Positions 3,456 to 26,515 of a DNA stretch of 64,000 bases are shown in pieces. The notes under the pieces were generated by a model that worked only from the letters and a program-made list of their open reading frames with translations, was not told where the DNA came from and searched no databases. How positions within the stretch are numbered: position 1 is the stretch's first letter; each line of letters opens with the position of its first letter. Made by a program: the position numbers and the translations under genes. The stretch spans positions 372,001 through 436,000 of the forward strand of contig NZ_JABBCH010000002.1 of the NCBI RefSeq assembly GCF_012952295.1. The letters are read 5' to 3'. Source of the stretch: Crystallibacter degradans (GTDB taxonomy: Bacteria > Actinomycetota > Actinomycetes > Actinomycetales > Micrococcaceae).

Positions 3456-4343
3456 CTATGTGATAGGCAGGGTTTCGGGGCTGGTGGTAACCGGAGGGCG
3501 GTTTCCTGTGCGGGTGGCGCCGATGCCGGCGGCGATGACCAGGGCGATCCCGAGGATCGCGAAGGGACTGGGCACCTGGCCGAGGAAGGCGAGGCCGACG
3601 ATCATGCCGATGGCCGGTTCCAGGCACATCAGTGTGCCGAAGGCCGCGGCGGTGAGCCGTCGCAGGGCCAGCAGTTCGAGGCTGAACGGTACTACCGGCA
3701 GCAGCAGCGCAAGCCCGACGCCGACCAGCAGCAGGCGCCAGTCGAGGTGGGCGAACGCTTCCGGCCCCACCGTGAATGTTGCGACGAGCGCCGCGACGGG
3801 CATGGACACGGCCAGGGCGCCAAGTCCTTCGGCGGCATCGCCCGCCCGCTGGGTAAGGAGGATGTAGGCGGCCCAGCAGAGGGCCGCGCCCAGCGCGAAG
3901 AGCACTCCCACGCCGTCGGTCTGGCCATGCCAGGGCTCGGTCAACGCGACTACGCCTGCGCCGGCTACGAGTGCCCACAGCCGCGACACCCCTCGCCCGC
4001 GGACCAAGGCCACGCCCAGCGGGCCGAGGAACTCCAGTGCGACGGCGGTGCCCAAGGGCAGTCGTTCGGCCGCGGCCATGAACAGGATGGTCATGCCGGC
4101 CGTGGCCACGCCGAGCAGGACGCAGGTGCGCAACGCAGTCGCGCTGAAGCGGATCCGCCAGGGGCGGGCGATGGCAACCAGGATCACGGCCGCCCAAGCC
4201 AGGCGAAGCCACGCGACGCCTCCGGCGCCGAGCCGGTCGACGAGTCCCACGGAAACGGCCAGACCTATCTGAACGCAGCACATCGCGGCGAACGCCATGG
4301 CGGTGCCGGAGGTCGTGCCGGAGATGCGGAGCGCAGTTGTCAT
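3456..4343 (-). CDS. EamA/RhtA-type small-molecule exporter
   Basis: 295 residues with about ten hydrophobic segments in two EamA repeats (first repeat GGVAWLRLAWAAVILVAIA, second ending LTAAAFGTLMCLEPAIGMI). The LEPxIGMIVGLAFLGQ segment is characteristic of the RhtA-like amino-acid/threonine exporter subgroup of the drug/metabolite transporter superfamily. The ATG at 4343 is used because upstream in-frame sequence enters the divergent LysR promoter. The 84-base gap to the divergent LysR gene suggests that regulator controls it. Confidence 0.88.
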   Translation of the reverse strand: MTTALRISGTTSGTAMAFAAMCCVQIGLAVSVGLVDRLGAGGVAWLRLAWAAVILVAIARPWRIRFSATALRTCVLLGVATAGMTILFMAAAERLPLGTAVALEFLGPLGVALVRGRGVSRLWALVAGAGVVALTEPWHGQTDGVGVLFALGAALCWAAYILLTQRAGDAAEGLGALAVSMPVAALVATFTVGPEAFAHLDWRLLLVGVGLALLLPVVPFSLELLALRRLTAAAFGTLMCLEPAIGMIVGLAFLGQVPSPFAILGIALVIAAGIGATRTGNRPPVTTSPETLPIT

Positions 4344-4427
4344 CCCACTAGTAGAACCGGATTCCTCCATCCACGTCCACGTGATAATCATGTGCATACC
4401 GTTCAGGAAACATGGACAATCAGAAGG

Positions 4428-5327
4428 GTGGATATTCGACGGCTCCGAACGCTGCTTGAGCTCTCGCGCAGCGGCTCGATGCGGGAAGTGGCCGACCTGC
4501 TCGGCACCACCACCTCGACGGTCTCGCAGCAGATCGCGCTGCTCGCGCGCGAAACCGGTGCGGTGCTTTTGGAGCCTGAGGGTAGGGGAGTGCGCCTCAC
4601 GCCAGCCGGACGGCGGCTTTCCGAGCACGCGGCCACTATCCTCGCCGCGGTCGAGGCCGCGCGGGCCGATCTCGATCCGGAAGCCGCGCCTTCGGGCACC
4701 CTCCGCGTGGCCGGTTTCGCCACCGCAATCCGCAGGAACATCATCCCCACCGTCAACGAGGCCGCGGTTAGCCATCCAGCACTGCGGATTGCCGTTCAGG
4801 AACATGAGCCCGCCGAGGCGCTCGAAATGCTCCTGGCAGACAGGACGGACCTCGCGCTGACCTACGACTACAACCTCGCCGCGGTACTCGACGATCCCCG
4901 GCTCGACAGGCTTCCTCTCTGGTCCACACCCTGGGGCCTCGGCGTCCCCGCGGATGACAAGCAAACGGTGCAAGGCAACGCCCCCGAGGTTTTCAGGGCG
5001 TTCCGCGACCGGGACTGGGTCGGCAACTCCCGCAATCTGGCGGACGAAGTGGTGGTGCGGTCCATCGGTTCCCTCGCCGGCTTCGAACCCCGCCTTCGCC
5101 ACGAAGCCGACAGTCTCGATCTCGTCGAAGACCTCATCCTTGCAGGCATGGGCGTTGGACTGTTGCCCGCGGATAGGAAGCCGCCACCGGGCGTCGTAAT
5201 CATCCCGCTCGCCGAGCCCGAAGTCCGGCTACGCGCCTATGCCCATACGAGGAAAGGGCGCACCACGTGGCCGCCGTTGCGCTATGTGCTTGCCCGACTC
5301 GAACCGGGCGACCTAATCGAAAGGTGA
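4428..5327 (+). CDS. LysR-family transcriptional regulator
   Basis: 299 residues. The winged helix is at residues 1-60 (LRTLLELSRSGSMREVADLL then TSTVSQQIALLARETGAVLL) and a LysR substrate-binding domain follows (TLRVAGFATAIRRNIIPTV onward). The GTG at 4428 is the only start that gives the full helix-turn-helix in frame; the nearby ATG at 4412 has a better AGGA but is out of frame. It is divergent from the exporter and probably autoregulatory. Its last 270 bases are duplicated at 6401-6671. Confidence 0.9.
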   Translation: MDIRRLRTLLELSRSGSMREVADLLGTTTSTVSQQIALLARETGAVLLEPEGRGVRLTPAGRRLSEHAATILAAVEAARADLDPEAAPSGTLRVAGFATAIRRNIIPTVNEAAVSHPALRIAVQEHEPAEALEMLLADRTDLALTYDYNLAAVLDDPRLDRLPLWSTPWGLGVPADDKQTVQGNAPEVFRAFRDRDWVGNSRNLADEVVVRSIGSLAGFEPRLRHEADSLDLVEDLILAGMGVGLLPADRKPPPGVVIIPLAEPEVRLRAYAHTRKGRTTWPPLRYVLARLEPGDLIER

Positions 5328-5494
5328 ATGGGTCCCAGCTACGATCGCGATTTTTCCTTCATTAATATGCCTATCGGAGGACGTCTTCTGCCGTTCACCT
5401 CGGACCCCCCCCAGAGTGGTGGCTCATCCGTTGGTTGCCCTAGGGCGCCGCTAGGATTAGGGAGACTTGACAGGACGACGGACGGAACGACGGC

Positions 5495-6007
5495 ATGAGC
5501 TACAAGAACGAAGGGGAGATCAAGCAGGCGCTTGGTATCGATTCATGGCGGAATCTCTCCAAGGACAAGATAATCAAGTTCGCAGTCATGATGCCTCACA
5601 TGGACACGGAGCTGGCTCTAAAAATCGTTGAGCAGTTCCCCGTGTTCAAAGAGTTCGCCATCGATGCTGTGGATGTGATGGAGAAAGTGCACGAGTCCAC
5701 GCTCTCAGCCAACAAGCAGAGTCAAGAGCATGTCCACCAAGCCTTCCGGGAAATCAGGGAAATCCTCAAGGGCGAACTTAGCAAGGACGGCCTGAGTTGG
5801 GACGAGAAGAAGTTTCTCATCGAGCAAATTCAGGAGACTGGAAGGCTAGACTTCCAAAAGGACAGTGAGAATAAGCAGCTCTTGGACGGGTGGCTCAACA
5901 AGGTGTTAGTAGGTGCTGGTGCTGCACTCACCCTGGGCGTAATTTTTGTCGGCGGCAAAGTCATGTCCGAAAGTAAAGACAGCCCCGATGGACCCCTGGA
6001 AGCCTGA
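5495..6007 (+). CDS. Hypothetical protein with C-terminal membrane anchor
   Basis: 170 residues. The first ~130 residues are charged and helical, with a likely coiled coil around residues 60-125 (VHESTLSANKQSQEHVHQAF). One hydrophobic segment follows (KVLVGAGAALTLGVIFVGG, about residues 137-156) and a short polar tail. The ATG at 5495 is preceded by GGACGGAA. Lysine and AT content are higher than in neighbouring genes (for example ENKQLLDGWLNK), which hints at acquisition. I do not recognise the family; a tail-anchored or phage-like bitopic protein is possible. Confidence 0.65.
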   Translation: MSYKNEGEIKQALGIDSWRNLSKDKIIKFAVMMPHMDTELALKIVEQFPVFKEFAIDAVDVMEKVHESTLSANKQSQEHVHQAFREIREILKGELSKDGLSWDEKKFLIEQIQETGRLDFQKDSENKQLLDGWLNKVLVGAGAALTLGVIFVGGKVMSESKDSPDGPLEA

Positions 6008-6098
6008 GCGTCAGCGCGGCATAGGCTGCGTCCGAGAAACTGTCCTTGAAGTCCGCACTTCTTACTTGACTAGGTGCAGGTAGTGTCGCGACGGTGTT

Positions 6099-6193
6099 GA
6101 TTCGGTGAAACTGGTACGCCTGCCGAATTCGATCTCGTTGCAGTCCGGGTAACGGAAGGCGCCTTGCGGACGTCGTTATCGTAGGTTTCGCAC
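6099..6193 (-). pseudogene. 3' remnant of a VOC (glyoxalase-like) gene
   Basis: This 95-base stretch aligns by eye with the 3' end of the VOC gene at 17125-17466 at roughly 80 percent identity with small indels; both contain the blocks GATCTCGTTGC, GCCTTGCGGAC and CGTAGGTTTCG in the same order. Only the sequence for the final ~30 residues is present and it is no longer readable. Confidence 0.6.
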
Positions 6194-6234
6194 GCTTGGT
6201 GGCGGGAGCATGATTTTGCTTCCGCCAACAACGG

Positions 6235-6400
6235 TTAGACGAGGGACGCGCTGAGGTTCGCGTCCGCCGTCGTTGTTTGAATGGTTTGGCTGGCGCGGAT
6301 GAGGTCGGCGCAGCGCTCTCCCATCATCATGCCCGTGAGGTTGGGGTTGACGGTCACGTGCTCGGGCATGACCGAGGCGTCGGCGACGCGCAGGCCGGTG
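6235..6400 (-). pseudogene. 3' tail of codA (duplicate of 7739-7903)
   Basis: The minus strand reads the last 54 codons of choline oxidase, including RVADASVMPEHVTVNPNLT, with the same stop position, at roughly 95 percent nucleotide identity to the 3' end of the intact codA. Identity ends abruptly at 6400, where the LysR tail begins. It has no start codon or promoter and is not functional. Confidence 0.85.
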
Positions 6401-6671
6401 CGGACGAGGTTGTGTTGCGGGTCCATCGGTTCCCTCGCCGGCTTCGAACCCCGCCTGCGCCATGAAGCCGACAGTCTCGACCTCGTCTAGGACCTCATCC
6501 TTGCGGCATGGGCGTCGATCTGCTGTCCGCGGATAGGAAGCCGCCGCCCGGCGTCGTAATTCTCCCGCTCGCCGAGCCCGAAGTCCGGCTTCGCGCCTAT
6601 GCCCATACGAGGAAAGGGCGCACCACGTGGCCGTCGTTGCGCTACATTCTTGCCCGCCTCGAAGCGGGAGC
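6401..6671 (+). pseudogene. 3' tail of the LysR gene (duplicate of 5041-5312)
   Basis: Starting at CGGACGAGG the sequence follows the intact LysR gene from base 5041 almost to its end, at about 90 percent identity. The copy carries an in-frame TAG (6487-6489) where the parent has a GAA codon, plus single-base indels, so it cannot be translated. It directly abuts the codA tail in the orientation expected at a tandem-duplication junction. Confidence 0.85.
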
Positions 6672-6885
6672 GCGCCAGAGGCCCTCCCCGCCGCCGCGAG
6701 GAACGGGTACCGCTACAAGCCTCGGTTTTCCAATCATCGAGGTTCGGCCGTTCCGCCTCCCAACGTGATGCCCTTGCCACGGCGGAGAGGTCATCGCGCG
6801 CGGACGAATTCGTACGGTTCCACCAATAGGGAGGACCTGAATCTGGGCTAGGCGTAGGGTGGAATCTAGACGATAGGAGCACTTC

Positions 6886-7662
6886 ATGAAGAAAATCCTC
6901 ATGGTACTGACCAGCGTTTCCGAGATCGGCGATACGGGCGAGAAGACTGGCTACAACGTGGCCGAGGCTGCACATCCCTGGAAGGTCTTCAAAGATTCAG
7001 GGCATTTCGTCGACTTCGCGTCCATCCAGGGCGGTCAGCCCCCGCGCGATGACGTGGACTCGGAAGATCCTATCCAGGTTGCCTTCACGAAGGACGAGGT
7101 CACGCGGGCTGGGCTTTACAACACTGCCCGCGTTGACGTCGTTGATCCCAGCCAGTACGACGCCGTCTACCTCGTGGGAGGTCACGGCACCATGTGGGAT
7201 TTCCCGGATAGCGAAGGCTTGCAGAATCTGGTGGCCAGCGTTTACAACGTCGGCGGCGTGGTGGGCGCGGTCTGCCACGGGCCGGCCGGCCTGCTGAACG
7301 TGGAATTGGAGAACGGGCTTCGCCTCGTCGAGGGCCGGAGGGTGGCGGCATTCACCAACGAGGAGGAGGTGGCCGCAGGGAAGGACAAGGTCATCCCGTT
7401 CTTTTTGGCAGACCGACTTGAGGAACAGGGCGCCACCCACGTCTCCGCTGATGTCTTTGAGGAGAAGGTTGTAGTTGACGAACGGCTGGTGACCGGCCAG
7501 AACCCGGCTTCAGCCGCCGGCGTGGCCAAGGAGATGGAGAAGCTCCTTGCGGAGGTCATCCACCAGGAAAAAGCCGAGGAACAGCACGAGACGGAGACTT
7601 TGCGCGCCGAGAAGGACGCCGAGAAAAACGCCAAGAAGGCTGCCGCAGAAGCGGAGCACTAA
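6886..7662 (+). CDS. DJ-1/PfpI-family protein (Hsp31-like class I amidotransferase fold)
   Basis: 258 residues. The DJ-1/PfpI nucleophile elbow is AVCHGPAGLL with Cys130 and His131, and an acidic residue in DTGEKTGYNVAEA near residue 19 completes the usual site. Such proteins act as glyoxalases III, deglycases or chaperones. The last ~35 residues are an Ala/Glu/Lys-rich helical tail not needed for the fold. AGGAG sits just before the ATG at 6886. It lies between the duplicated LysR tail and codA and is transcribed alone. Confidence 0.88.
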   Translation: MKKILMVLTSVSEIGDTGEKTGYNVAEAAHPWKVFKDSGHFVDFASIQGGQPPRDDVDSEDPIQVAFTKDEVTRAGLYNTARVDVVDPSQYDAVYLVGGHGTMWDFPDSEGLQNLVASVYNVGGVVGAVCHGPAGLLNVELENGLRLVEGRRVAAFTNEEEVAAGKDKVIPFFLADRLEEQGATHVSADVFEEKVVVDERLVTGQNPASAAGVAKEMEKLLAEVIHQEKAEEQHETETLRAEKDAEKNAKKAAAEAEH

Positions 7663-7738
7663 CACCAACAGCGCGCTGAAACCGACGGCCACCCTGACGA
7701 CAGGGCGGCCGCCAGTTGGCGTACAGGCCGGGAACTTT

Positions 7739-9379
7739 TTAGACGAGGGACGCGCTGAGGTTGGCGTCCGCCGTCGTTGTTTGAGTGGTTTGGCTGGCGC
7801 GGATGAGGTCGGCGCAGCGCTCGCCGATCATCATGACGGTGAGGTTGGGGTTGACCGTCACGTGCTCGGGCATGACCGAGGCGTCGGCGACGCGCAGGCC
7901 GGTGACGCCCTTGACGCGCAGCTCGGGGTCGAGCGGCGACATCGCGTCCTCGGGCGGGCCCATGCGGACGGTGCCGACGGGGTGGTAGACCGTGTTGTGC
8001 GTTTTGCGGATGTAGTCGCGGAGTTCCTCATCGGTCTGTGCCTCGATGCCGGGGGACAGCTCGCGGCCGGCCCATTCGGCCATGGCGGGCTGGGCGGCGA
8101 TTTCGCGGGCCTTGCGGATGCCGGCGACCATGACGCGCATGTCGTGGCCCTCGGGGTCGGTGAAGTAGCGCGGGTCCACCATCGGCTTGTCCCGGAAGTC
8201 GCGGCTGCGCAGCCGGACGGTGCCGCGGGAGCGTGCGTGCGTGACGTTCGGGGTGAGGCTGAAGCCGTTCTCCGTAGTGGGGTAGCCGTGCCGCAGGGTG
8301 TTCATGTCGAAGGGCACGCTGCCGTAGTGCATCATCAGGTCCGGGCGGTCCAGGCCCTCCTCAGTGGGCGTGAAGATGCCGATCTCCCACCACTGGGTGG
8401 AGGTTTGGACCATCGGCTGCTTGGCCTCGAACTGGACGACGCCTTCGGGGTGGTCCTGCAGGTGTTCGCCGACGCCGGGGGCGTCGACCAGGACGTCGAT
8501 GCCGTGCTCGGCGAGGTGGGCGGCGGGGCCGATGCCGGAGAGCATCAGCAGTTTCGGCGTGTCAATGGCACCGGTGGAGACGACGACTTCCTGCCGGGCA
8601 GTGAGCCGGTGCGTACGCCCGAAGGCGGAGTCCACAATATCGACGCCGGTGCAGCGCTTCTCGGCGTCGAACACCAGTTGGCGGGCGCGCAGGCCGGTCA
8701 GCAGGGTGAAGTTCTCGCGTTCCATGATCGGGTGGATGTAGGAGACGGAGCTGGAGGAGCGGGTGCCGTCCGCGCGGCGGTTGATCTGGAAGAAGTTGGC
8801 GCCATTGACTACGGTGGTGCCGTTGTTGAACTTGGCCCGCGGAATGCCGGCCTGTTCGCAGGCGTCCAGCAGGGCGACGCCGGCCGGGTCAGCCGGCGGG
8901 ACGTTCATGACGTGCACGGGGCCTGAGTCCCCGTGGTGCGGGGCAGCCGGTCCGGCGTCCTCGTTGGTTTCCAGCCGCTTGTACAGTGGCCAGGCGTTCT
9001 CCGCGTTCCAGCCGGTGGCACCGTGCTTGGCTTCCCATTCGTCCAGGTCCTCGCGCGGGGCCCAGAAGGCGATGCAGGAGTTGTGGCTGGAGCAGCCGCC
9101 CATGACCTTGGCGCGGGAGTGCCGCATGAAGGAGTTGCCGTTCTCCTGCGGCTCGATTGGGTAGTCCCAGTCATAGCCGGATTCGAGCAGCTCCATCCAG
9201 CGGTCCAGCTGCAGGACCTCGGGGATGCTGCGGTCGTCGGGGCCTGCCTCGACCAGTGCCACGGTCACTTCGGGGTCTTCGCTCAGCCGAGCGGCGACGG
9301 CGGCGCCGGCGGACCCGCCGCCGATGACGATGTAGTCGAACTCCCGGTCCATCAGGTTGTCGATGTTGTCGAGATGCAT
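7739..9379 (-). CDS. codA: Choline oxidase (GMC oxidoreductase)
   Basis: 546 residues, the length of the Arthrobacter globiformis enzyme, which it resembles closely along its whole length from memory. It oxidises choline via betaine aldehyde to glycine betaine using oxygen. Visible features: FAD-binding GGGSAGAAVAARL near residue 20, GMC motif RAKVMGGCSSHN with the flavin-linking His99, second GMC motif GAIDTPKLLMLSGIGP, the active-site His of NTVYHPVGT and the Asn of HVTVNPNLT. The start at 9379 is immediately next to the stop of betB, so the two are translated as one operon. The 3' end was copied to 6235-6400. Confidence 0.95.
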   Translation of the reverse strand: MHLDNIDNLMDREFDYIVIGGGSAGAAVAARLSEDPEVTVALVEAGPDDRSIPEVLQLDRWMELLESGYDWDYPIEPQENGNSFMRHSRAKVMGGCSSHNSCIAFWAPREDLDEWEAKHGATGWNAENAWPLYKRLETNEDAGPAAPHHGDSGPVHVMNVPPADPAGVALLDACEQAGIPRAKFNNGTTVVNGANFFQINRRADGTRSSSSVSYIHPIMERENFTLLTGLRARQLVFDAEKRCTGVDIVDSAFGRTHRLTARQEVVVSTGAIDTPKLLMLSGIGPAAHLAEHGIDVLVDAPGVGEHLQDHPEGVVQFEAKQPMVQTSTQWWEIGIFTPTEEGLDRPDLMMHYGSVPFDMNTLRHGYPTTENGFSLTPNVTHARSRGTVRLRSRDFRDKPMVDPRYFTDPEGHDMRVMVAGIRKAREIAAQPAMAEWAGRELSPGIEAQTDEELRDYIRKTHNTVYHPVGTVRMGPPEDAMSPLDPELRVKGVTGLRVADASVMPEHVTVNPNLTVMMIGERCADLIRASQTTQTTTADANLSASLV

Positions 9380-10876
9380 TTAGTTCTCCTTGCCATGGTC
9401 AGCGAACCAGCCGGTTACCTGCGGGCTAGTGTTCTGGTAGATGTGCTTGGCTTCCTGGTACTCGGCCAGGCCGGTGGGGCCCAGCTCGCGGCCGACGCCG
9501 GACTGGCCGAAGCCGCCCCACTCGGCCTGCGGCAGATAGGGGTGGAAGTCGTTGATCCAGACGGTGCCGTGGCGCAGCCGGCCGGCCACGCGTTGCGCCT
9601 TGCCGGCGTCCTGGGTCCAGACCGCGCCGGCCAGGCCGTAGATCGTGTCATTGGCGGTGGCCACGGCCTCGTCCTCGGTGCGGAAGGTCTCGACCGTCAC
9701 CACCGGGCCAAAGGCTTCATCGACGACGACGGACATTCCCCTGGTCACGCGGTCCAAAACCGTCGGCTGGTAGTAGAACCCGCCGTCGTACTTGTCCCCT
9801 TCAGGCGCCGCGCCGCCGCAGCGCAGCCGCGCACCCTCCTGCACTCCGCGCTGGACGTACGCGTCCACCTTCTCGCGGTGCGCCGCGGAAATCAGCGGTC
9901 CGGTCTCCGCGGCCTCGTCGAAGGGGCCGCTGAGGCGGATACCCTCGGCGCGGCGGACCAGCTCGTCGACGAAGCGCTCGGCGATCGATTCCTCGACCAC
10001 CAGCCGTGCCCCGGCGGAGCAGACCTGCCCGGAGTGCACAAAGGCGCCGTTCAGCGCATTATCGACGGCGGCATCGAAGTCCGCGTCGGCGAACACCACG
10101 TTGGGGTTCTTGCCGCCCAGTTCCAGGGCCACCTTCTTGACCGTGCCGGCCGCGGCCGCGGCGATGCGCTTGCCGGTCTCCAGGCCGCCGGTGAAGGAGA
10201 CAAGGTCGACGTCGGGATGTTCCGAAAGCGGTGCGCCCGCCTCCGCGCCGGGGCCGGTGACGAGGTTGGCGACGCCGTCCGGCAGGCCGAGGTCCTGAAG
10301 CAGCTGCATGGTCAGAATGGCCGTGGACGGGGTGAGCTCGGAGGGCTTGAGCACAAACGTGCAGCCGGCGGCCAGCGCGGGCGCGATCTTCCACGCGGCC
10401 TGCAGCAGCGGATAGTTCCACGGCGTGATCATGCCGCAAACGCCCACCGGCTCGTGGACAATACGGCTAACGACGGCGGGATCCCCGGCGTCGACCACGC
10501 GGCCAGCGTCCTGCCCGGCGAGCTTGCCGAAATAGTCGAAGCAGGCGGCAATATCGTCCATGTCGATGCGGCTTTCGGCCATGCGCTTGCCGGTGTCCAG
10601 CGACTCGGCGCGGGCGAACTTCTCGCGGCTTTCGCGCAGGCCGGCGGCGACCTTGAGCAGGAAAGCTCCGCGCTCGGGCGCCGGAACGGAGGCCCAGACA
10701 CCCGAGTCGAAGGCGGTGCGGGCTGCGGCGATGGCGCGCTCGGCGTCGGCCCGGCCGGCCTCGGACACCCTGGCGACCAGTTCGCCGTCGGCCGGGTTGC
10801 GGATTTCCCGCACGGCATCGGATGCGGCCGGCTCCCAAGCGCCGTTGATGAACAGGGTGGAGGCGGTATCGGTCAT
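9380..10876 (-). CDS. betB: Betaine aldehyde dehydrogenase
   Basis: 498 residues of the NAD(P)-dependent aldehyde dehydrogenase superfamily. The catalytic Glu lies in VALELGGKNPNVV and the nucleophilic Cys in HSGQVCSAGARLV; TPWNYPLLQAAWKIAPALA is the cofactor-binding segment. Its place between a BCCT carrier and choline oxidase shows the role: betaine aldehyde to glycine betaine for osmoprotection or carbon use. The start overlaps the BCCT stop codon by the four bases ATGA, so translation is coupled. Confidence 0.93.
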   Translation of the reverse strand: MTDTASTLFINGAWEPAASDAVREIRNPADGELVARVSEAGRADAERAIAAARTAFDSGVWASVPAPERGAFLLKVAAGLRESREKFARAESLDTGKRMAESRIDMDDIAACFDYFGKLAGQDAGRVVDAGDPAVVSRIVHEPVGVCGMITPWNYPLLQAAWKIAPALAAGCTFVLKPSELTPSTAILTMQLLQDLGLPDGVANLVTGPGAEAGAPLSEHPDVDLVSFTGGLETGKRIAAAAAGTVKKVALELGGKNPNVVFADADFDAAVDNALNGAFVHSGQVCSAGARLVVEESIAERFVDELVRRAEGIRLSGPFDEAAETGPLISAAHREKVDAYVQRGVQEGARLRCGGAAPEGDKYDGGFYYQPTVLDRVTRGMSVVVDEAFGPVVTVETFRTEDEAVATANDTIYGLAGAVWTQDAGKAQRVAGRLRHGTVWINDFHPYLPQAEWGGFGQSGVGRELGPTGLAEYQEAKHIYQNTSPQVTGWFADHGKEN

Positions 10877-17080: not shown

Positions 17081-17124
17081 GACGCGCCAGGCCTCCCGAT
17101 AGTGGCACCAGCGCGTAGATTCGG

Positions 17125-17466
17125 TCAGACTGGTGCGCCGCCGAAGCCGATCTCGTTGCCGTCCGGGTCTCGGAAGGTCGCCTTGCGGACACCGTTTTCG
17201 TAGGTTTCGCGCACAGCCGGCTCGAGTCCCCGCTCGGCGATCTGCGAGATGCGGGCGTCAAAGTCGCCGAGGAAGACTGTGTGCATGGCGTGCCCGGCAT
17301 GCCCGGACCGCACTTCGATGAACAGATACCGGTGCTCGGCGAGCTCCCAGACCGCCTCGGTGTCGTTGGGCAGGAACGATGGCGGGGCTCCCAGGAGCCG
17401 CTCATACCAGGCTGTCGCTTCGGCGTAATCGCGGACGGGAATGCCGGCAAACAGATCTAGGTCCAT
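17125..17466 (-). CDS. VOC-family (glyoxalase/bleomycin-resistance fold) protein
   Basis: 113 residues from the ATG at 17466, which has GAAGGAA upstream. LDLFAGIPVRDYAEATAWYE and the closing FRDPDGNEIGFGG are the classical first and last beta-alpha segments of a single VOC module, with a metal-binding Glu near the end. The substrate cannot be read from sequence. A degraded copy of its 3' end lies at 6099-6193. Confidence 0.82.
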   Translation of the reverse strand: MDLDLFAGIPVRDYAEATAWYERLLGAPPSFLPNDTEAVWELAEHRYLFIEVRSGHAGHAMHTVFLGDFDARISQIAERGLEPAVRETYENGVRKATFRDPDGNEIGFGGAPV

Positions 17467-17562
17467 GGCTTCCTTCTCAAGCAGTTGCTGAGCAGTACTT
17501 TCCGGCACCGTACTCCTGAAAAGTCCTGGAGACTATCCGTTGGGCTCGACGGAGCGCCGTTG

Positions 17563-25872: not shown

Positions 25873-26515
25873 GGACTAGCGTGATGTGGGCTGCCGACGC
25901 CGAACTGGCGATGTCCGCGCGCCGGTAGTGCTGTATCTGATCGCCAAGATCGGTGAGCAGCCGTTCGCCCGAACCGAGCAGGATTGGCACAATGCTGAGC
26001 TGCAGTTCGTCGACGAGCCCGGCCTGCAGGTACTGCCGGATAGTCGACACTCCACCGCCGAGCTTCACATCGAGGCCACCGGCGGCGTCGATCGCCTGCT
26101 CGCGGGCGGCGTGGATTCCGCCGCTGACGAAGTGGAAAGTGGTTCGACCCTCCATCTCAAGCGGGGCGCGTTCGTGATGGGTGAGGACGAACACGGGGTG
26201 GTGGAAGGGCGGATTATCGCCCCACCAGCCGGTCCAGTCGTCACTGTTCTCCCACCGACCCCGGACGGGTCCGAACATGTTCCGGCCCATGATGGTGGCC
26301 CCGATGCCGGCGTCCGAGCGGTCGGCAATGTCGTTATCGACACCCGTTTCGCCGTCGTCGCCCATGCCGTGTTTGCTCCGGAAGGCCCGGGTGGGCAACA
26401 CCCACTCATGCAGACGTTCGCCACCCACACCAAGCGGGTTCTCCGCGCTCTGATCCGGCCCGGCACCGTAGCCGTCGAGGGATATGCAGAAAGGAGCTAC
26501 GCGCAGCTTCGCCAT
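25859..26515 (-). CDS. Dihydrofolate-reductase-fold protein (RibD C-terminal-like)
   Basis: 218 residues of the RibD_C/DHFR-like family: FCISLDGYGAGPDQS at the start, ATIMGRNMFGPVRG, FVLTHHERAP and GGGVSTIRQYLQAGLVDELQ near the end. These are standalone reductases of unknown substrate, common in actinobacteria. Two adjacent ATG codons occur (26518, 26515); AAGGA spacing favours the second. A fragment of a related gene lies at 27687-27736. Confidence 0.88.
   Translation of the reverse strand: MAKLRVAPFCISLDGYGAGPDQSAENPLGVGGERLHEWVLPTRAFRSKHGMGDDGETGVDNDIADRSDAGIGATIMGRNMFGPVRGRWENSDDWTGWWGDNPPFHHPVFVLTHHERAPLEMEGRTTFHFVSGGIHAAREQAIDAAGGLDVKLGGGVSTIRQYLQAGLVDELQLSIVPILLGSGERLLTDLGDQIQHYRRADIASSASAAHITLVRDGR

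Follow-up and report, generated by a model that had tools for sequence, protein, structure and literature searches.

The interval between a LysR-family regulator gene (hereafter LysR) and codA, which encodes choline oxidase, in Crystallibacter degradans is probably, though by no means certainly, a gene-gain hotspot that lacks a recombinase and has been filled serially by foreign or sister-strain DNA. The window, meaning the whole 64-kb stretch of DNA analyzed, belongs to genome G000 (C. degradans), and we compared it with relatives in the same genus group, sampled as 10 genomes, including G001, G003 and G007, whose loci are labeled L143, L145 and L144, respectively. In the proposed process, DNA would have been added between the convergent LysR and codA more than once. 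In each addition, homology to LysR or codA could have positioned one end, and the opposite end would have been joined at sites sharing little or no homology; such joins would leave the 3′ tail of codA, LysR or a glyoxalase/VOC-type (VOC) gene stranded inside as a scar. The tails would have been supplied by donor DNA, not by the cell's own sister chromosome, through one-sided homology and end joining. The features that carry this argument are as follows, in window coordinates.

4428–5327, plus strand: LysR-family regulator, intact (Pfam HTH_1 and LysR_substrate)
5309–6095, no strand assigned: slot 1, unmatched in the equivalent segments of G001, G007 and G003
5495–6007, plus strand: cargo gene of 170 amino acids (aa), unknown family, with plasmid-type relatives
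6096–6191, no strand assigned: copy of the 3′ tail of a glyoxalase/VOC-type gene, 86% identical to 17115–17210
6194–6234, no strand assigned: hairpin found beside codA 3′ ends in the clade, forming the left edge of codA-tail copies
6235–6400, minus strand: copy of the codA 3′ tail (relic), 96% identical to 7739–7904
6401–6668, plus strand: relic LysR 3′-tail copy, carrying indels and an in-frame stop, 90% identical to 5041–5308
6886–7662, plus strand: PfpI/DJ-1 family gene (Pfam DJ-1_PfpI), the native neighbor of the LysR 3′ end, as in G003
7739–9379, minus strand: codA, choline oxidase, intact, right flank (Pfam GMC_oxred; match to 2jbv/4mjw)
17125–17508, minus strand: intact VOC/glyoxalase-type gene (Pfam Glyoxalase), source or relative of the tail at 6096–6191

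The non-coding patch at approximately 6096–6668 is a stack of three stranded gene tails, namely VOC, codA with its hairpin, and LysR. An initial annotation of this DNA had proposed that a codA tail is fused to a LysR tail at 6400/6401, and both a repeat search and blastn confirmed the fusion. The LysR match was found to end at 5308/6668 rather than at 5312/6671, and the codA copy proved to carry the hairpin on its left as well. The repeat search aligned the codA tail copy (6235–6400) with 7739–7904 at 96% over 166 nt, and recovered the LysR copies as two pairs (5059–5143/6420–6504, 94%; 5145–5308/6505–6668, 90%), which blastn merged into one (5040–5308/6400–6668, 90.4%, E ~1e-101). Chance similarity was excluded because a blastn comparison of the 64-kb window with itself (word size 9) returned five repeat pairs at E 1e-6, three of which involve the patch; the remaining two lie at 26023–26071/27686–27734 (49 bp, 84%) and 33143–33171/36552–36580 (29 bp, 100%).

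The LysR and codA tails are both truncated on their 5′ side with the 3′ end kept, and just a few bases match at the codA::LysR join, so that one end was joined without extended homology. The VOC tail is a direct-orientation copy of sequence approximately 11 kb away; traces of it in relatives comprise an alignable stretch left of the extra codA tail (codA2) in G001 and approximately 16 bp in G007, and the VOC/glyoxalase-type gene has further matches in G001, G003 and G007. The hairpin region (6192–6238) folds as DNA at −14.9 kcal/mol (z −4.9), and the hairpin is present at five codA-tail copies as well as at the intact codA of G007, three of these having been folded. No function of the patch is visible. 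The LysR tail of the G001 patch, unlike that of the window, still forms an open frame of 133 aa (L143:10292–10693) whose start lies in antisense codA.

The fused patch, 434 bp in length, recurs in two other species, represented by G007 and G001 (90% each), and the codA::LysR junction falls at the same place in G000, G001 and G007. Among 395 family genomes, with two candidates per genome scored, no further genome carried the full-length patch. Within the genus group, LysR was present in 6 of the 10 genomes, a close codA (at least 91% identity) in 9 and PfpI in 4. The window itself reads LysR, 170-aa gene, VOC tail, hairpin, codA tail :: LysR tail, PfpI, codA. G001 begins with LysR, a 621-aa protein, a VOC-like tail, the hairpin, a codA tail (239 bp) and an M20 peptidase, and continues with a hairpin, codA tail :: LysR tail, PfpI and codA. 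G007 begins with LysR, a 257-aa protein, a VOC trace, the hairpin, codA tail :: LysR tail and PfpI, followed by a LysR end (68 bp), an MTHFR-like gene, a hairpin and a codA tail with an internal gap; its right part holds an FAD oxidase, an MFS gene, an iron-type alcohol dehydrogenase and an IclR gene before the hairpin and codA. Thus at least three further joins are visible besides the shared one, including the extra codA tails located by blastn at L143:8235–8473 in G001 and L144:9437–9645 in G007 and the extra LysR end at L144:8391–8458 in G007.

The fourth arrangement, that of G003, is unduplicated, with a single LysR tail: LysR, PfpI, 13.5 kb of cargo, half a hairpin and codA, the cargo comprising TetR, DUF3237, a solute-binding protein, an amidase, an ABC transporter, an amidohydrolase, a sulfatase and FGE. 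A relative with an unduplicated interior, which the initial annotation had proposed to look for, therefore exists, with LysR followed directly by PfpI. The stretch from the LysR tail to PfpI in the patch-bearing arrangement aligns with G003 without a break, at 91%. In G003 itself, PfpI (L145:2623–3399) has an internal TGA. In a survey of 80 codA loci, covering up to approximately 7 kb downstream of each (less than 1.5 kb in 3 of the 80), one locus had an extra codA tail, L003, which was taken to be the same genome as G007.

The cargo between LysR and codA differed in all four of the genomes that carry these genes in this order. On its left, the variable slot is bounded by the last codons of LysR, where homology to relatives stops at 5300–5308. 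At E 1e-3, the slot-1 DNA left of the VOC piece had no match among G000, G001 and G007, and slot 1 of the window (5309–6095) had none in the G001, G007 and G003 segments or in the G003 cargo. Furthermore, 5309–5494 had no second match within its own genome, and 6008–6092 had none in the 10 genus genomes.

The 170-aa cargo protein is 72% identical in amino acids to relatives on a Streptomyces plasmid and on Sinomonas pSA01, and relatives of its gene occur on plasmids of Streptomyces, Sinomonas, Arthrobacter and Kocuria; one of them adjoins a gene annotated as belonging to a Pycsar effector family. The gene was found in 3 of 197 family genomes, its own included, and the protein had no Pfam, PADLOC or NCBIfam match; it might be a defense or plasmid-maintenance gene. 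The 257-aa protein of G007 had no defense-family match in PADLOC, and the MTHFR match of the G007 cargo protein falls below Pfam's own cut-off. The 621-aa cargo protein of G001 (L143:6002–7867) matched neither Pfam nor NCBIfam, and its PADLOC match to LeoBC was weak and partial (E 0.0003). The Ku end-joining protein was present in all 10 genus genomes.

Outside the slot, two further genes serve as flanking references.

3456–4343, minus strand: EamA-type transporter gene (Pfam EamA), divergent from LysR, left flank, syntenic in G001, G007 and G003
9380–10876, minus strand: aldehyde dehydrogenase, betB-like (Pfam Aldedh), conserved right flank

The label of codA is good, given a full-length match to the choline oxidase chains 2jbv/4mjw, and beyond codA and the betB-like gene lies a minus-strand gene that we take to be betT-like. 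The frame of the window LysR was taken from the GTG at 4428. At its 5′ end (4412–4430), the ATG corresponding to the upstream start of G007 appears to be out of frame in the window copy, and a 5′ frameshift is possible there.

Divergence was uneven across these genes. At third codon positions, LysR of G000 differed from that of the three relatives by 0.23–0.30, and EamA, PfpI, codA and betB by 0.08–0.16; this roughly twofold divergence of LysR would suit a gene that lies at the edge of recombination. In raw right-flank distances G003 lay slightly outside (0.054–0.057 versus 0.041–0.047 among the others), as it did for PfpI (0.040–0.057 versus 0.031–0.041). FastTree flank trees with outgroups did not support this outside position of G003, the outgroups attaching at G007 for the right flank and at G000 for the left flank. 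Because the two flanks give different first branches among the four species, the order in G003 may be ancestral or the patch may have been lost there.

We then considered how the patches themselves have changed, using codon-position statistics that are post hoc, omit gapped columns and draw on few private changes, 40 in LysR and 15 in codA. By codon position (first, second, third), the private LysR-tail changes separating the three patches numbered 11, 6 and 23, with p = 0.0014 in a binomial test of the third position; the corresponding numbers between the intact LysR copies of the same species were 5, 1 and 25 (Fisher versus patch, p = 0.045). For the codA tail, the private changes were 2, 3 and 10 in the patches versus 2, 1 and 6 in the intact copies (Fisher p = 1). 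Private bases of the patch LysR that also occur in an intact copy were at the third position in 14 of 16 cases, and those unseen in intact copies in 9 of 24, as for unconstrained decay. On this pattern, the patches seem to combine alleles that took shape in working genes with decay that came afterwards, a mixture that argues against plain vertical decay from one duplication, although gene conversion could have the same effect.

Several observations weigh against serial addition from donor DNA. LysR may simply evolve faster, and codA, the other flank, is not raised in divergence. The private codA changes unseen in intact copies fall at the third position in 7 of 12 cases, which is not the neutral third, and a third-position bias can also arise by gene conversion with intact copies. 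Trees of the tails (HKY+G, 200 bootstraps) were unresolved, with bootstraps of 12–52 apart from outgroup nodes at 81–100; with unresolved trees and patch changes that are partly allele-like and partly neutral-looking, the view in the initial annotation that this feature dates gene flow was too strong. Genus members that lack the patch have Ku as well, the LysR/PfpI/codA arrangement occurs in just four genomes, and no donor strain with a matching LysR–cargo–codA allele was found. The codA::LysR join, taken alone, is equally expected from a plain tandem duplication. Finally, a piece of G001 slot 1 (L143:7982–8056), just left of the VOC-like tail, matches L145:3570–3638, approximately 170 bp downstream of PfpI in G003 (76 bp, 74%, gapped); this match, at E 7e-5 in one blast and 1e-5 in another, is weak and confined to one species. 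Such a leftover is what would be expected if a duplicated interior had lost complementary parts, and a donor allele whose interior was likewise LysR–PfpI–codA could account for it as well. The four other slot pieces compared with the G003 cargo (G000 slot 1, two G007 slots and the G001 M20 slot) gave no match.

These last points bear on the strongest alternative, one old tandem duplication running from inside LysR to inside codA and followed by PfpI loss and insertions in copy one, which was the explanation offered in the initial annotation. A tandem duplication with later decay yields a backward join like that of codA and LysR. Both the gene order and the exact junction fit this topology, and G003 supplies an unduplicated relative. 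Moreover, LysR-tail copies within the same genome differ at 20–33 of approximately 242 positions, similar to intact copies between species (19–35). The accompanying proposal of complementary loss gains something from the 76-bp resemblance between G001 and G003, but comparison of the interval from LysR to the patch in G000, G001 and G007 turned up no remnant of PfpI, and the slot-1 genes of these three species all differ. The interiors carry no demonstrated copy relation apart from that weak match, and the VOC tail, the two extra codA tails and the extra LysR end all need additional events. Serial addition requires one event per scar and places differing cargo where it is found, whereas a single duplication needs the loss of PfpI and extra events besides. 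We therefore rejected one duplication as sufficient, as slot 1 shows no PfpI trace, and kept it as a contributor: as the whole story it is rather unlikely, several more joins being present, yet it is a serious rival for the first codA::LysR join, which may have come from donor DNA or from internal duplication.

An improbable alternative is template switching during replication or repair, in which short pieces of neighboring genes were copied into one break. The VOC, codA and LysR pieces are all in direct orientation and all lie within approximately 12 kb, and there is only short similarity at the codA::LysR join, as this process would produce. However, the LysR tail continues into its native neighbor PfpI and so is not a short templated insert, and the foreign cargo between the tails would be left unexplained.

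We regard as very unlikely a mobile element whose recombinase targets gene 3′ ends and whose attachment-site duplicates would be the tails. The slot edges in three species do lie within approximately 10 bp of one another near the LysR stop, and beside the codA hairpin. Nevertheless, no integrase or transposase domain was found by Pfam in any of 18 cargo proteins, nor in the 170-aa gene (small open reading frames were not scanned), no tRNA was found at the slot, and tail lengths vary from copy to copy. An element with an integrase or a tRNA target was accordingly rejected, there being no recombinase among the proteins scanned, no tRNA and no constant attachment repeats. An assembly artefact, which the initial annotation had named as a way in which its reading could fail and which the 124 contigs of the G000 assembly might invite, is hardly conceivable and was rejected, as independent assemblies show the same junction: it recurs in G007, and in G001 it lies far from the ends of a 4.76-Mb contig.

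Serial addition to a fixed interval has precedents. According to Oliveira et al. 2017 (PMC5635113), gene-transfer hotspots without mobile-element genes are common, with recombination in the flanking core genes, and the mechanism proposed for them rests on statistics. The LysR–codA interval resembles these hotspots in its variable cargo, its fixed neighbors and the lack of any integrase or transposase found, and perhaps in the higher diversity of the flanking gene LysR. It differs in that tails of the flanking genes were left inside, so the additions were not clean; in addition, the hotspot label here derives from cargo comparison and not from the statistics of that study, and LysR is not a core gene in this genus.

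In Vibrio cholerae, orphan 3′ ends in effector–immunity arrays have been ascribed to homology-facilitated illegitimate recombination by Kirchberger et al. 2017 (PMC5361080). One-side-anchored successive insertion, displaced 3′ pieces kept downstream and arrays of old pieces are features common to that account and to our locus; unlike the effector arrays it describes, the cargo here is ordinary metabolic or unknown genes, both flanks have contributed tails, and there is no visible selective reason for their retention. Homology-facilitated illegitimate recombination, with one homologous and one non-homologous end, is described from laboratory events in PMC3240628. The same types of end are proposed for the LysR–codA interval from old scars alone. 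Our literature search found no title on this locus, which is no claim of its absence from print.

The codA::LysR fusion also gives the slot direct repeats of approximately 268 bp of LysR tail, and we raise, as a doubtful and speculative extension, that a unit of cargo with codA tail :: LysR tail moves between strains by homologous recombination alone. If this were true, such a cassette would insert at any LysR 3′ end, swap cargo and exit by a repeat crossover that restores the G003 order, all without a recombinase of its own. Phenomena of the kind seen at the LysR–codA interval are known, but this example is unusually easy to read: past additions have left their edges behind as fused tails, so that the order and type of the joins are directly readable, and each scar is present in some strains and absent from others, which allows testing. 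A further lesson is one of caution, since an intergenic patch of fused gene tails does not necessarily signify duplication.

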